A stretch of DNA of 23,473 nucleotides from a virus. The stretch covers positions 1 through 23,473 of IMG/VR virus record IMGVR_UViG_3300032334_001231. One strand, written 5' to 3'. A program made the position numbers and the translations under genes. The notes beneath the pieces were generated by a model. The model was not told the origin of the DNA. It did not search any database and worked only from the letters and a program-made list of their open reading frames with translations. Positions 13,725 through 23,332 of this stretch are shown in pieces; position 1 is the stretch's first letter, and every line of letters begins with the position of its first letter.

Positions 13725-14636
13725 TTATATATGGTTAACGCCTTGATAATTTTGTTGTGATTTCATTTCTGCAAATTGAGATACTTCAGCATCGCTAAGA
13801 TTTATACCAACACTCAATAAAGCCTTTATTAGAATCATATTTATATCTGTATCCCTCCACTCTAATTGAACAGAACTTATTGGGTCATAAACGATGTTTC
13901 TTCCCCCAACAATGCTATATCCGTAAACAGGCTTCTTAGGTCTTCTCATGTAAGACACGCTGCCAATGTAATTATTGTTAGCAGGATATAAGCGAATAGT
14001 TCTCGGTGCAATTATTTCTCCTAATGGTGCTGTGGGAATTGGTGGGTCTATTTGAGAATTTAACTTATTAGACCTTTCATCTTCGTTTGTCATCTTAACT
14101 GGATAATATGTGTCCCTCCCGTCTTGAGTAAACTCAATTTCCATGTCTAACATATCAAGGTATACCCTGCTCTCAAAGACGCTTATTGTAGCTCCGCTTT
14201 GTATGGTTGTAATTGGGGCAATACTTACTTCAAATGAGGTAGAAGATGTTATCTTGGTTATAATGGTATCTGGTTGGAATAGCCCAGTTCCCGTACTAAC
14301 TACAACAATCTGCCCTATAATTAATACTGTTGTACTAGAAACATTAATTGTTGTACCAGAAGATGCAGCATTTGCAGTAATTACCGATACGAAGAATGTG
14401 TTTGGGATTGTAACTATTTGTGGGTTACTAGCAGCCGAATTAAAGCCATACCTAGTTTTAAATGGGGTTAGGCAGTCTTTTATTATTTGAGATGTAGCGT
14501 ACTTCGGGAATATGTCGTTGTAATAAGCAATCTGTCCCAAGTCAATTACGGCAACAGACTCTTCTATTGTCAAGAAAGAACCCCTCTCTTTTCTTATCCA
14601 GAAATTAATATAATCAACACAGTCTTTAATATTCAT
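13725..14636 (-). CDS. Ring-type connector protein with an inserted beta-domain, 303 aa
   Basis: The body looks like the crAss-like ring protein type. It has an N-terminal helical bundle (CVDYINFWIRKERGSFLTIE, then ATSQIIKDCLTPFKTRYGF), a beta part (YYPVKMTNEDERSNKLNSQI with DPPIPTAPLGEI) and the segment IGSVSYMRRPKKPVYGY. It ends in SVQLEWRDTDINMILIKALL and GINLSDAEVSQFAE. Residues about 84-155 differ from this. They are Ser/Thr/Ile/Val rich, with SSGTTINVSSTTVLIIGQIV and TIITKITSSTSFEVSIAPIT, a small all-beta repeat widely scattered in phage virion proteins. I read that as a domain insertion in the ring protein. It is probably the first ring below the portal. Confidence 0.6.
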   Translation of the reverse strand: MNIKDCVDYINFWIRKERGSFLTIEESVAVIDLGQIAYYNDIFPKYATSQIIKDCLTPFKTRYGFNSAASNPQIVTIPNTFFVSVITANAASSGTTINVSSTTVLIIGQIVVVSTGTGLFQPDTIITKITSSTSFEVSIAPITTIQSGATISVFESRVYLDMLDMEIEFTQDGRDTYYPVKMTNEDERSNKLNSQIDPPIPTAPLGEIIAPRTIRLYPANNNYIGSVSYMRRPKKPVYGYSIVGGRNIVYDPISSVQLEWRDTDINMILIKALLSVGINLSDAEVSQFAEMKSQQNYQGVNHI

Positions 14637-17017: not shown

Positions 17018-17290
17018 ATGACATCAATAGAATGGTTACTTGAACAAGTAGAACATAACATTTCTAAAACTATTATTGAACAAGCAAAAGAAATGCACAA
17101 GCAAGAGATAATAGATGCTTTTTCCCATACAGAAATTATGAGTGGAGAGTATTTTCAAGTTTTTGATAATGCAGAAGAATACTATCAAGAAACATTTGTA
17201 AGTAAGGGAAGTGATGAAACATCTGACTTTGACAAACCTTTTATGCATTTTGCTAAACAATATGTAGAACAATTAAAAACTAAAAAATGA
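17018..17290 (+). CDS. MTSIEW-family small phage protein (paralogue A), 90 aa
   Basis: Starts MTSIEWLLEQVEHNISKTII, continues EQAKEMHKQEIIDAF and ends around EEYYQETFVSKGSDE. The pattern MT(S/A)xEW...QAKEM...YY(Q/N)ETF is common among small hypotheticals of Bacteroidota phages; its function is unknown. It shares 34 identical nt with paralogue B (17087-17120 against 17690-17723) and a second block near YYQETFVSKGSDE, so the two arose by recent duplication. Its stop overlaps the next ATG (ATGA). Confidence 0.7.
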   Translation: MTSIEWLLEQVEHNISKTIIEQAKEMHKQEIIDAFSHTEIMSGEYFQVFDNAEEYYQETFVSKGSDETSDFDKPFMHFAKQYVEQLKTKK

Positions 17291-17527: not shown

Positions 17528-17890
17528 ATGAGACCATCAGAATTTTTAGAAGAATATTATGAAAAAAAGAAAAAAGAAGCACAACTTCCCCAACAAGAAA
17601 CTATGACATCAATAGATTTTTTAATGCAAAAGTTAATTAATGATTATGGAATGCAAATTGGTGATGATTATTTAATAATTCAACAAGCCAAAGAAATGCA
17701 CAAGCAAGAGATAATAGATGCTTATTTCCAATGTGGCAAAGATAATTTTGACCATATAAAAGTTTGTAATAGGTCTGCTGTTGATTACTATCAAGAAACA
17801 TTTGTTAGTAAGGGAAGTGATGAAAAAGAAGATTGTGAAAATACTAGTGGATTTTATCAAAACAATAATTTAAAACCTAAAAAAGATTAA
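17528..17890 (+). CDS. MTSIEW-family protein (paralogue B) with an extra N-terminal extension, 120 aa
   Basis: The first 25 residues (MRPSEFLEEYYEKKKKEAQL, then PQQET) precede an internal MTSIDFLMQKLINDYGM that corresponds to the start of the other family members. QQAKEMHKQEIIDAY and VDYYQETFVSKGSDE follow, near-identical to paralogue A. It therefore looks like a fusion of a short leader gene to an MTSI gene. The linker LPQQ comes from a CTTCCCCAACAA stretch, a near relative of the dispersed word. Function unknown. Confidence 0.65.
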   Translation: MRPSEFLEEYYEKKKKEAQLPQQETMTSIDFLMQKLINDYGMQIGDDYLIIQQAKEMHKQEIIDAYFQCGKDNFDHIKVCNRSAVDYYQETFVSKGSDEKEDCENTSGFYQNNNLKPKKD

Positions 17891-18293: not shown

Positions 18294-18521
18294 ATGACAT
18301 CAATAGAATGGTTATGGGAACAGATAGATGGTATTATACCCTATCAAGATATTAAAACATCACAACTTTTTAATGGGGTGCTTGAACAAGCCAAAGAAAT
18401 GCACAAGGCTGAAATAATAAAAGCATTTGATGAAGGTCAAGAGTATGAGTACCAATATCATATTAATAATGCTCCTAAATTTGATTCAGAAACTTATTAT
18501 CAAGAAACATTTAAAAGTTAA
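18294..18521 (+). CDS. MTSIEW-family small phage protein (paralogue E), 75 aa
   Basis: MTSIEWLWEQIDGIIPYQDI, then LEQAKEMHKAEIIKAF, then TYYQETFKS. Same family as paralogues A and B, with a different loop between the blocks and no KGSDE tail. A stretch of about 20 nt around CAAGCCAAAGAAATGCACAA is identical to B. Function unknown. Confidence 0.65.
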   Translation: MTSIEWLWEQIDGIIPYQDIKTSQLFNGVLEQAKEMHKAEIIKAFDEGQEYEYQYHINNAPKFDSETYYQETFKS

Positions 18522-20696: not shown

Positions 20697-20705
20697 AAAT
20701 ATTTT

Positions 20706-20735
20706 TTGGTAGTATCAAAAACATTTCTATATTTG
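20706..20735 (+). promoter_or_regulatory. Consensus Bacteroidota promoter for the replication genes
   Basis: TTG at 20706-20708 is followed after exactly 19 nt by TATATTTG (20728-20735). This fits the Bacteroidota sigma-ABfr pattern TTG-N19-TAnnTTTG. The start of transcription would be near 20,742, giving a leader of about 145 nt before ATG 20886. Confidence 0.65.
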
Positions 20736-20791
20736 TTGTGCTTAACATTAATTAATCATGTTTACCAACAAAAACAATCATTTAAAATACT

Positions 20792-20870
20792 GGGCGATTC
20801 CTGTTGCAATTTTTTCTTCTGCTTTTCTATAAGCGAATTAATTTTTGTTAAGCAACAACAGGGGTTGCCC
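20792..20870 (+). ncRNA. Structured 5' leader: 15-bp stem with inner hairpin
   Basis: Positions 20792-20806 (GGGCGATTCCTGTTG) pair along their whole length with 20856-20870 (CAACAGGGGTTGCCC), giving 12 Watson-Crick and 3 G-U pairs. The 49-nt loop holds a smaller hairpin, GCTT-TTCTAT-AAGC (20821-20834), extended by TTC/GAA. The G-U pairs work only in plus-strand RNA, which fits the promoter upstream. The ATG of the next gene is 15 nt past the stem. It may be a regulatory leader or a small RNA; no known riboswitch class is recognised. Confidence 0.55.
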
Positions 20871-20885
20871 TTAACTTTTTATATT

Positions 20886-21110
20886 ATGGCAACAGTCAGA
20901 AAAACAATGTTTTTTGGAATTGATTCAGAAGATTCTAATTACCACACACACAAAATTTCTTTTACAGGGCAATCAATTATTATTGCTGATGCAGATGATG
21001 ATTTTAATGTAAATGCAATTGAAGTATCAATTCAAGATTGGAAGGATATATGTCAATTTATTCTTGAAGAAAAAAGAGAGTATGATTTTATTGTAAACTA
21101 TAAAAAATAA
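20886..21110 (+). CDS. Small acidic hypothetical protein, 74 aa
   Basis: Starts at ATG 20886 (MATVRKTMFFGIDSEDSNYH); a longer frame from 20706 would translate the promoter and the leader stem and is unlikely. It continues ISFTGQSIIIADADDDFNVN and WKDICQFILEEKREYDFIV. It is acidic, probably beta-then-alpha, with no known family. As first gene behind the promoter and structured leader, and 4 nt ahead of the initiator, it may act in replication or its control. Confidence 0.6.
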   Translation: MATVRKTMFFGIDSEDSNYHTHKISFTGQSIIIADADDDFNVNAIEVSIQDWKDICQFILEEKREYDFIVNYKK

Positions 21111-21114
21111 AATT

Positions 21115-21927
21115 ATGCCTAAAAGATTTACAGATACAGAAATATGGAAAAATCAGAGATGGTTTAGAAAACTATCTCCTATAAATAAATTGATATTTTT
21201 TTACATAAAAGACCAGTGTAACCATGCAGGTATTTGGAAAATAGATTGTTCTGACCTTATTGATGATTTAGGTTTGGATATATTTGATATGGATAATTTT
21301 ATTGATGAAATGAATTCTGATTTTGATAAAATAAATGGTAAAAAAATACAAAAAGAAAGGGTTAAAATTTTAAAAAATAACAACCTTTGGATAACTGGGT
21401 TTATACAATTTCAATATGAATCAAAAGAAAAAGTTGTTAGTGAGTCATCTTGTGTTAAAACTGCTCTTTTAATTTTAAAAGGTCTTGATATATATGAAGA
21501 ATCTATAAGTAAGGGTTATGTAACCCTTAAAAAAAACGATATAACCCTTAATAAGGGTTTGGTAACCGATAAGGATAAGGATACATACAATACTCTTATA
21601 AATAATAATAATAAACAAGAAGAAAATTTAAAAAATTCAAACTTGTTTCGTCAGCCAAATATTCCAACTAAAGACCAAGTTTGGGAATTCTTTCATGGTG
21701 CAAGGGCAACAAAGGAAATGGCTAAGGCTTTTTACGACAAATATGAGGGAACGGGATGGTTTATAAATGGCTCTCCAATTGTGAAGTGGCAAGCATTTGC
21801 AAACAATTTCATTACAAATTGGATTAAGATTGAAGAACAGAAGAAGAAAAAAAACACCTATCAACAGCCTGACCCAACCAAAATAAAAATAAAATTACCT
21901 AATTCCCCAACCCCAAGATATGATTAA
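21115..21927 (+). CDS. Replication initiator / helicase loader, 270 aa
   Basis: Residues 1-105 look like the winged-helix N-terminal domain of phage replication initiators (FTDTEIWKNQRWFRKLSPIN, KLIFFYIKDQCNHAGIWKID, then NNLWITGFIQFQY). Residues 130-185 are a low-complexity linker. Residues 185-240 (PTKDQVWEFFHGARATKEMA, then FYDKYEGTGWFINGSPIVKW) match the C-terminal helicase-loading region of DnaD/replisome-organiser-type proteins. The stop overlaps the DnaB start by 8 nt, so the two are co-expressed. It should bind the origin, probably inside its own gene, and load DnaB there. Confidence 0.75.
   Translation: MPKRFTDTEIWKNQRWFRKLSPINKLIFFYIKDQCNHAGIWKIDCSDLIDDLGLDIFDMDNFIDEMNSDFDKINGKKIQKERVKILKNNNLWITGFIQFQYESKEKVVSESSCVKTALLILKGLDIYEESISKGYVTLKKNDITLNKGLVTDKDKDTYNTLINNNNKQEENLKNSNLFRQPNIPTKDQVWEFFHGARATKEMAKAFYDKYEGTGWFINGSPIVKWQAFANNFITNWIKIEEQKKKKNTYQQPDPTKIKIKLPNSPTPRYD
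21510..21650 (+). other. Candidate replication origin inside the initiator gene
   Basis: Four copies of TAAGGGTT(A) lie within 50 bp as two inverted pairs: TAAGGGTTA-TG-TAACCCTTA (21510-21529) and AACCCTTA-A-TAAGGGTT (21543-21559). GATAAG direct repeats follow (21568-21579), then an A/T-rich stretch (about 21585-21650). The encoded protein here is the disordered linker, so DNA-level constraint is plausible. Iterons in the linker of the initiator gene followed by A/T-rich DNA is the arrangement of the phage lambda origin in gene O. Confidence 0.6.
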
Positions 21928-23332
21928 AGATAAATTACCTCCACAGTCAGCAGAAATTGAGGAATCAATCTTAGGGTCTTTGATGCTTGACATTAATTGC
22001 CAAAACTTAGGGATGTCAAGATTGTTTGAGGATATGTTTTATAAAATTGAATTTAAGGCTGTTTTTAAGGCTATAGCGGCACTTTATGATGGTGGGCAAG
22101 GCATAGACATCATTACGGTGGTTGAGGAGCTTAAAAGGCAAAATAATTTAGAACTAGTTGGAGGGGCTTATGCGGTCATGAAAATAACTAATTCTGTGAT
22201 TAGTTCTGCCAACATAGAAAATTACATTTTGATTTTGTCTGAAAGTTATTTGAAGAGGGAAATGATAACCATATCACACGATGCATTTTCAAAGTCATTT
22301 TTGGACGAAACTGACATTTTTGACCTTATAAGTGCTACAGACGAAAAGATGCAGAAGTCGCAGGAGAAGGTTATTAAGGGAATGTCTAAGGATATAGTTT
22401 ACTATGGAATGAAGGTTTTAGAGCAGCACGCTACCGTTAAGCATAGTGGTGTTTTGGGAATTAAAACCGAAATAAATGAACTTGACAAGGCTACGAATGG
22501 CTTGGTTTCCCCAGACTTGATAATAATTGCCGCAAGACCAGGTGCAGGTAAGACTGCATTGTCGTTGTCTATTGCTTATAATACTTCTGTCTTGGGAAAT
22601 GTTCCTTGTGCGATTTTTAGCTTAGAAATGGATGGAGTTCAGTTGGTAAGAAGGCTGGCTTCTATTGACACAAACATTCCACATGAGAGAATAAGAAATG
22701 GTCAGACTACAGATAATGAGGATAGGATGTTAGGGGAGTCCATAGACAAGATTGCTTCGTCTAAGATTTTTATTGAGGACAGGACAAGTATGAACATTAG
22801 GGATATTAGAACCAAGGCTACATTGTTAAAGAAGAAGCATAGTATTGGGTACATAATTGTTGACTACATACAATTGATGTCTGGAACTGATGTTAAAAAT
22901 AAGAATAGAGAGCAGATAGTTTCTGATATAAGTAGGGGTTTAAAGTGTATAGCAAAGGAATTAGAGATACCTGTAATTGCATTAAGTCAGTTAAGTAGAG
23001 CTGTAGAGTCAAGGGCAGACAAGATGCCTCAGTTGTCAGACCTAAGAGAGTCTGGTGCTATTGAGCAGGATGCAGATAGTGTATTATTTTTAATGCGACC
23101 TGAGTATTATGGTATGACAGAACCTATTGACATAAATAACATAGAATACCCTGTACAGAAACTAGCTATTTGTACTATTGCTAAAAATAGACACGGTTCT
23201 ACAAAAAATATAGCAATGGAATTTACTGGCTCAACAATGCAGTTTAGAAATCATCATTTAAGTCAAAATAAATTAATTAAGATAGAAAGACAAGCTGACG
23301 GCACATTTTCAAAAGAAGATTTACCATTTTAA
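21920..23332 (+). CDS. dnaB: Replicative DNA helicase, DnaB family
   Basis: 470 residues, the usual DnaB length. The N-terminal domain begins LPPQSAEIEESILGSLMLD. Walker A is RPGAGKT at about 206-212, Walker B ends in IIVDY with the Asp at about 315, the sensor-type SQLSRAVESR is at about 356, and DLRESGAIEQDADSVLFLMR spans about 374-393. It is a hexameric 5'-3' helicase that unwinds the fork ahead of the polymerase and recruits primase. It follows the loader with an 8-nt overlap. All core motifs are intact, so it should be active. Confidence 0.95.
   Translation: MIKDKLPPQSAEIEESILGSLMLDINCQNLGMSRLFEDMFYKIEFKAVFKAIAALYDGGQGIDIITVVEELKRQNNLELVGGAYAVMKITNSVISSANIENYILILSESYLKREMITISHDAFSKSFLDETDIFDLISATDEKMQKSQEKVIKGMSKDIVYYGMKVLEQHATVKHSGVLGIKTEINELDKATNGLVSPDLIIIAARPGAGKTALSLSIAYNTSVLGNVPCAIFSLEMDGVQLVRRLASIDTNIPHERIRNGQTTDNEDRMLGESIDKIASSKIFIEDRTSMNIRDIRTKATLLKKKHSIGYIIVDYIQLMSGTDVKNKNREQIVSDISRGLKCIAKELEIPVIALSQLSRAVESRADKMPQLSDLRESGAIEQDADSVLFLMRPEYYGMTEPIDINNIEYPVQKLAICTIAKNRHGSTKNIAMEFTGSTMQFRNHHLSQNKLIKIERQADGTFSKEDLPF

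Follow-up and report, generated by a model that had tools for sequence, protein, structure and literature searches.

The DNA analysed here (hereafter the window: 23,473 nucleotides, positions 1 to 23,473 of IMG/VR virus record IMGVR_UViG_3300032334_001231) carries a structured leader between a promoter and a set of replication genes, which raises the question of what such an RNA does at this position. A first-pass annotation had described it as an RNA regulator of an initiator/helicase operon or a small RNA. The features used in our analysis are as follows, where window class denotes the window and 11 related loci that are described below.

20705 to 20735, plus strand: Bacteroidota sigma-A type promoter, TTTG-N19-TATATTTG (pattern match; same layout in all 12 window-class loci)
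20740, plus strand: inferred transcription start (+1), from the F. psychrophilum TAnnTTTG spacing in the available part of PMC9723704
20740 to 20756, plus strand: P1 5' strand (seqA), the 17 nt at the 5' end of the RNA (repeat finding, covariation, permutation)
20758 to 20832, plus strand: putative short ORF of 24 codons, MFTNKNNHLKYWAIPVAIFSSAFL, overlapping the P2 5' strand (start codon near here in 12/12 window-class loci)
20792 to 20806, plus strand: P2 5' strand, GGGCGATTCCTGTTG, a 15-nt segment of the first-pass annotation, beginning GG (repeat finding, covariation)
20792 to 20870, plus strand: c4-like core of 79 nt closed by P2 (core lengths across the window class)
20821 to 20834, plus strand: P3, inner hairpin GCTT-TTCTAT-AAGC
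20837 to 20853, plus strand: P1 3' strand, the antisense segment (seqB) (repeat finding, permutation; in the target class, described below, it also matches the next start codon)
20856 to 20870, plus strand: P2 3' strand, CAACAGGGGTTGCCC (repeat finding, covariation)
20871 to 20885, plus strand: U-rich tract (U5 at 20876-20880), a candidate attenuator-like element between P2 and the ATG (T-run counts)
20886 to 21110, plus strand: first ORF of the operon, 74 aa, no family (ORF list, profile searches)
21115 to 21927, plus strand: 270-aa ORF before dnaB, phrog_15768, unknown function (PHROG match)
21920 to 23332, plus strand: DnaB-type replicative helicase (DnaB_C, 1.2e-88)

A Bacteroidota-type promoter and a structured leader precede the replication genes

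The pattern TTG-N19-TATATTTG matches exactly at 20706-20735, as had been claimed, and a pattern scan found no other match in the window. Because 0.81 exact matches are expected by chance in a sequence of this length, the match alone is not rare, and the weight of the promoter lies in its conservation at the same place in relatives; 7 of the 12 window-class loci with this layout came from protein searches. According to the available part of PMC9723704, TAnnTTTG occupies -12 to -5 at F. psychrophilum promoters, and this spacing places the predicted start at 20740. That nucleotide is precisely where P1 begins and is close to the earlier estimate of 20742. The host of the window phage is probably a member of the Bacteroidota.

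The leader RNA, ~130 letters long, begins just past this promoter, and the ATG at 20886 indeed lies 15 nt beyond the P2 stem. The helicase of the proposed initiator/helicase operon was borne out by the DnaB_C match, and the initiator was not, as the 270-aa ORF before dnaB has no Pfam match. By eye, the ORF that follows the leader in the relative L006 is similar in sequence to the 74-aa ORF of the window.

The leader is predicted to fold as a pseudoknot

The two segments GGGCGATTCCTGTTG and CAACAGGGGTTGCCC pair at 15/15 positions, with 12 Watson-Crick and 3 G-U pairs, and an inner hairpin (GCTT 20821-20824, AAGC 20831-20834) lies between the P2 5' strand and the P1 3' strand, so that both elements described in the first-pass annotation are present. 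That description captured half of the structure: it overlooked P1, whose arms (20739-20756 and 20837-20854 in the repeat finder) are 89% complementary over 18 nt, as well as the 24-codon ORF at 20758-20832. The order of strands is P1 5', P2 5', P1 3', P2 3', so P1 and P2 are interleaved as in a pseudoknot. We observed that the plus strand folds better than 200/200 shuffled sequences (z -3.84; minus strand, z -1.60), and a covariance model of the window-class cores scored the plus strand of the window at 86.7 bits vs 26.4 bits for the minus strand. We regard the predicted pseudoknot structure of the leader as secure.

Relatives of the window conserve pairing through compensated substitutions

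Protein searches with DnaB and with the protein encoded upstream of dnaB returned 10 loci, 7 of which (L004-L009 and L013) have the promoter and leader ahead of the operon. Four more, L017, L025, L031 and L038, came from RNA-pattern scans and, together with the window, bring the window class to 12 loci. Among the other protein-search loci, L012 starts inside dnaB and is uninformative on the leader, and L010 and L011 keep dnaB and have no leader at the same place. These two are close dnaB relatives, an observation that points to the leader being dispensable in some phages.

To assess covariation in P1 and P2 together we used 8 distinct rows, leaving out L007, L008 and L017 with their differing P2 lengths; L006 equals L013 in these segments. 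Pairing was retained in 96.0% of cells, and 13/22 pairs had changed on both sides, giving a covariation score of 0.547 vs 0.210 in shuffled alignments (0/500 shuffles reach it), so the substitutions that could have broken the stem in relatives are in fact compensated. Shifting the P1 and P2 partners lowered pairing to 55% or less. An alignment of all 12 cores, which excludes P1, was 87.2% paired, with a score of 0.461 vs 0.231 shuffled (0/500). In both the window and target classes, P2 strands pair better with their own partners than with exchanged ones (matched in 0/5000 permutations), and for P1, positions outside the letters of the search pattern agreed at 80/120 (0.67) with own strands vs 0.42 with exchanged strands (0/20000). 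The core is 74-82 nt long in 11 window-class loci and 77 nt in L007 once a bulge is corrected, and GG opens 12/12 cores.

All 12 window-class records are without a tyrosine integrase, vs 5/11 in the target class, many of these records being fragments. Because of this absence from 12/12 records, most of them fragments, classical lysogenic immunity is unlikely for the window class. Downstream, the seqB complement recurs over 6 nt at best in the window and over 5-8 nt in the window class, and there is no second copy of the seqB target elsewhere in the 23.5-kb record, which is itself perhaps incomplete.

Comparison of the window with L013 gave 90.9% identity upstream and 89.1% in the downstream gene vs 58.1% in the RNA, and the RNAs of L005 and L006 match that of L013 at 85-87%. 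The RNA thus behaves as a cassette that is exchanged between close relatives, a pattern more in keeping with a specificity element than with a fixed protein site.

Diverged relatives match the start codon of the next gene

Loci of other phages have the same promoter, start, pseudoknot and size, and are followed by a gene that begins with ATGCTNAA, a copy of the RNA 5' end. We refer to such loci, in which the P1 3' strand matches the next start codon region over 8 to 21 nt, as the target class; the RNA 5' end, the antisense segment and this region change in concert. Among the eighteen stretches from one scan, arms are complementary in 11, and the other 7 are chance matches. The 15 target-class loci consist of these 11, L063 from a genome and three types contributed by named phages; 12 of the 15 were selected with a pattern that demanded the core match. 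Outside the letters of that pattern, seqB agrees with its own next start codon at 97/150 positions (0.65) vs 0.38 when exchanged (0/20000). Pairing with the target is predicted to be stabler than pairing with the 5' arm in 4/15 loci (L015, L045, L047, L052) and not in the other 11.

Downstream genes were tested at 10 target-class loci: 4 are antirepressor-like, namely P22_AR_N (1.7e-22) in L015, AntA (1.3e-16) in L052, weak ORF6N/Bro-N with anti-repressor PHROGs in L039 and weak RhuM in L043, and 6 have no Pfam family. In five of the 15 loci (L015, L045, L047, L052, L057) an ORF from the RNA 5' arm spans the leader and overlaps the downstream start out of frame; icd/ant of P1 resembles such a short ORF overlapping a downstream start in another frame. 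A stand-alone pseudoknot of the same topology, with a T-rich terminator-like tail, lies in minus orientation at 8386-8520 of L024, in a record that holds two integrases; as no gene follows on that strand, we placed it in neither class.

The leader resembles c4 and CI antisense RNAs

The leader resembles the c4 antisense RNAs, which serve temperate phages in immunity, and to identify it we compared these loci with Rfam. Rfam classes the copies in Flavobacterium phages 6H and 1H as c4-2 RNA (RF02944, 49.4 bits; cut-off 41), five more target-class loci scored 31-39 bits (E below 0.003), and L047 and L052 scored ~20 bits at the right place, values that are not significant alone. The window has no c4-2 match at the gathering cut-off, relaxing the threshold to E 10 brought up neither c4 nor c4-2, and the c4-2 model did not match the window-class loci L003, L071, L074, L076, L077, L078 and L080. 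In the reverse direction, the window-class model hit target-class cores at the exact position in L023 (21.8 bits, E 0.014) and L045 (16.8 bits, E 0.33), which are weak links.

The window shares with c4-2 (clan CL00128) a 79-nt element closed by an outer stem, the model having 79 positions, and its layout of promoter, start, P1 and core also occurs at the c4-2 loci of Flavobacterium phages. It differs in that c4-2 has a UAU/UAA internal loop, a GAAA hairpin and two inner hairpins, all absent from the window, where an uninterrupted 15-bp stem encloses one hairpin; the window also lacks a start-codon target and heads a replication operon. Upstream partners in c4 systems go by the names c4-a1b1 and a1/b1. 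In c4 of P1 and P7 (RF01695), RNase P cuts at the GG that opens the outer stem to give about 77 nt, close to the 79-nt, GG-opening core of the window, and the RNA is antisense to a cotranscribed target, with only a few specificity letters differing between P1 and P7 (available part of PMC5320573). Unlike the window, with its one hairpin and one antisense segment, c4 consists of three stem-loops, includes a' and b' loops and is directed against ant; the window has neither ant nor a downstream target. Its leader precedes a replication operon where c4 controls an antirepressor, and the antisense match to a downstream start or ribosome-binding region that we found in 15 target-class loci is at best 6 nt in the window.

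The pairing partners of P4 CI RNA are seqA on its upstream side and seqC on its downstream side, within the leader of the P4 replication genes, as given in the available part of PMC4825925; the window likewise has a replication-operon leader whose antisense segment is complementary to upstream leader sequence (P1 arms, 89%), whereas the window class has no seqC and P4 is a different type of phage. IsrK of Gifsy-1 occurs in two forms, one a small RNA that ends by termination and the other the leader on the mRNA of an antirepressor (same source and extent), a duality of small-RNA and mRNA-leader forms that the window RNA may share, but IsrK activates anrP and has another structure and host.

Our search for literature on c4-2 and RF02944 found no paper describing a c4-2 target, and RF02944 appeared only in the Rfam 15 paper, as far as the available text goes; the start-codon match of c4-2 may already be in print. 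That the window leader would work like c4 or CI is well supported by its layout and its relatives. We do not claim the window RNA as c4 or c4-2, because model, inner architecture and downstream target were tested and do not agree. Between the two roles suggested earlier, a small RNA fits best, given its c4-type size and layout, and regulation is a role that we infer. An unlabelled leader of environmental phages is thereby linked to c4/CI antisense systems, and the promoter-proximal pseudoknot is an addition to the Rfam c4-2 model, which omits it.

Three sites change together in cultured Flavobacterium phages

By DNA similarity, 12 Flavobacterium psychrophilum phage records contain the element, and we analysed six of them (6H, FPSV-F7, 2A, 1H, FPSV-D15 and 23T; L065-L070). 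The RNA 5' end, the antisense segment and the next start codon change together in these six: 6H, 23T and 1H have GACTAAA, TTTAGTC and ATGACTAAA, and 2A, FPSV-F7 and FPSV-D15 have GCAAAAA, TTTTTGC and ATGCAAAAA. A further locus, L046, differs from the 2A core by one matched substitution that is present at all three sites. Downstream, 1H and 2A are identical at 655/680 positions, vs 183/228 in the first part, which contains the RNA. As permutation over six loci and three types reaches the observed agreement in 324/20000 cases, this clade alone offers modest evidence for three-site covariation. The three-site sequence of the cultured phages looks like an immunity-type marker, and its covariation would make RNA immunity groups of named Flavobacterium phages predictable from sequence. 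In all six phages the element lies just upstream of a small ORF and the tail tape measure genes.

A short ORF and a U-rich tract accompany the leader

Counted from the T at -1, with which the P1 motif opens, a start codon for a short ORF follows after 6-19 nt in 12/12 window-class and 8/15 target-class loci; it is GTG in L007, and L009 has a second, later ATG. In the window class these ORFs have 9-29 codons, with P2 inside or just beyond them, and end before P2 in L004, L031 and L017. A run of at least 5 Ts precedes the ATG in 8/12 leaders vs 9/91 other ORFs of the same loci, a contrast whose p-value is indicative only, as the loci are related. The distance from the P1 3' strand to the ATG is constant at 26-35 nt in the window class, and roughly half of the target-class loci have no long U-run. 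We considered a simple intrinsic terminator and set it aside, since the U-run starts 5 nt past the stem and does not abut it. Short ORF and U-tract support, but do not prove, partial termination or coupling.

A model for the leader and its alternatives

We propose, with a probability of roughly 55%, that the leader is a c4/CI-type antisense RNA that heads the replication operon and acts on the 5' end of its own transcript. Transcription would begin at 20740, the first base of P1, and the transcript would fold as a pseudoknot in which P1 joins the 5' end to seqB and P2 closes the 79-nt core. Some transcripts would end early or be cut, as RNase P cuts c4 at GG, leaving a small RNA that carries seqB. 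Because seqB is already paired in cis, action in trans would require such processing. Freed seqB would pair with seqA, the opening ~17 nt of newly made transcripts that share its specificity, beside the short-ORF start, and would lower expression of the replication genes, as self-limitation or as exclusion of like phages; helicase would be made from read-through transcripts. In favour of this model are the covarying pseudoknot, the start of P1 at the inferred +1, the GG-opening 79-nt core, the cassette exchange and the layout shared with c4-2 loci. Against it count the cis pairing of seqB, the missing second target and Rfam match, the 12/12 records (mostly fragments) without an integrase, the U-run set off from the stem, and L010 and L011, which do without the leader.

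A more tentative extension, which we consider possible at well below even odds, is that phages without an integrase practise RNA-only exclusion at replication. A c4-like small RNA would pair with the first 17 nt of its own operon transcript, whose 5' end would serve both as pseudoknot helix and as specificity tag, and relatives would swap the entire RNA through recombination to escape, as temperate relatives swap three-site antirepressor cassettes. Trans action of the replication-operon form, if true, would mean that phages lacking an integrase practise exclusion by antisense RNA at the replication step.

An attenuator acting only in cis is a somewhat unlikely alternative. P2 and the U-tract would stop RNA polymerase before the first gene, ribosomes on the short ORF would prevent P2 from forming and so couple the replication genes to translation, and P1 would block initiation at the short ORF. 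The short-ORF start in all 12 window-class loci with P2 inside or just after the ORF, the enrichment of T-runs ahead of the ATG and the constant distance between P1 and the ATG agree with such a device, and leader-peptide attenuation is reported for F. psychrophilum in the available part of PMC9723704. It leaves unexplained the wholesale exchange of P1 between near-identical flanks, and it accords poorly with ORF lengths that vary from 9 to 29 codons, with ORFs that end before P2 in three loci and with target-class loci, around half of them, that lack a long U-run.

We consider it quite improbable that the pseudoknot is a protein site, bound by an operon product that thereby represses its own translation in the manner of T4 gene 32. 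The location directly upstream of the first gene of the replication operon would suit such a site, but the leader stays while first genes differ among relatives, and turnover of the RNA sequence outpaces that of the flanking genes, which a fixed protein site would not show. Our first idea, a riboswitch or a T4-gene-32-like site, is not favoured, as downstream genes vary. Least probable is an element of the DNA itself, an origin or an operator with inverted repeats: the repeats do adjoin the replication genes, but the three G-U pairs in P2, the strand bias of the covariance score, the start of P1 at the inferred +1 and the start-codon matches in relatives all argue for RNA. The antisense reading remains our preferred account of the leader.

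Further searches and observations

Several candidate matches were rejected. An exact 17-base scan of the P2 3' strand gave two unrelated loci (L001, L002), a scan of genome contigs gave 6 matches, none with complementary arms and none matched by the model, and the arms of L018 (=L021, L029), L020, L032-L037, L041, L044, L048-L051, L053, L055, L056 and L064 are not complementary, so that we treat these as chance. Weak Rfam matches at the window, far under the cut-off, to MIR399 (E 0.25) and snR34 (E 8), which we take to be plant and yeast families, are also chance. The promoter pattern had 0 matches in 395 genomes of the phylum and the target pattern had 2, one of them real; searches of family (149) and genus (121) genomes returned the same locus and nothing else, and a plasmid search gave no match. 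Compared with phage records by DNA similarity, the window leader gave 3 weak matches of 41-95 bases, two of them in records with a Listeria label and the third in a 636-kb record that has no annotation.

A weak window-class model match (16 bits) at 13745-13807 of the window is probably chance inside coding DNA, and matches of 16-20 bits in the relatives G003, G004 and G005 may be at the same place. In the early region of the window, the ORFs 17018-17290, 17528-17890 and 18294-18521 share the motif MTSIEWL...QAKEMHK.EI and are apparently duplicated paralogues.
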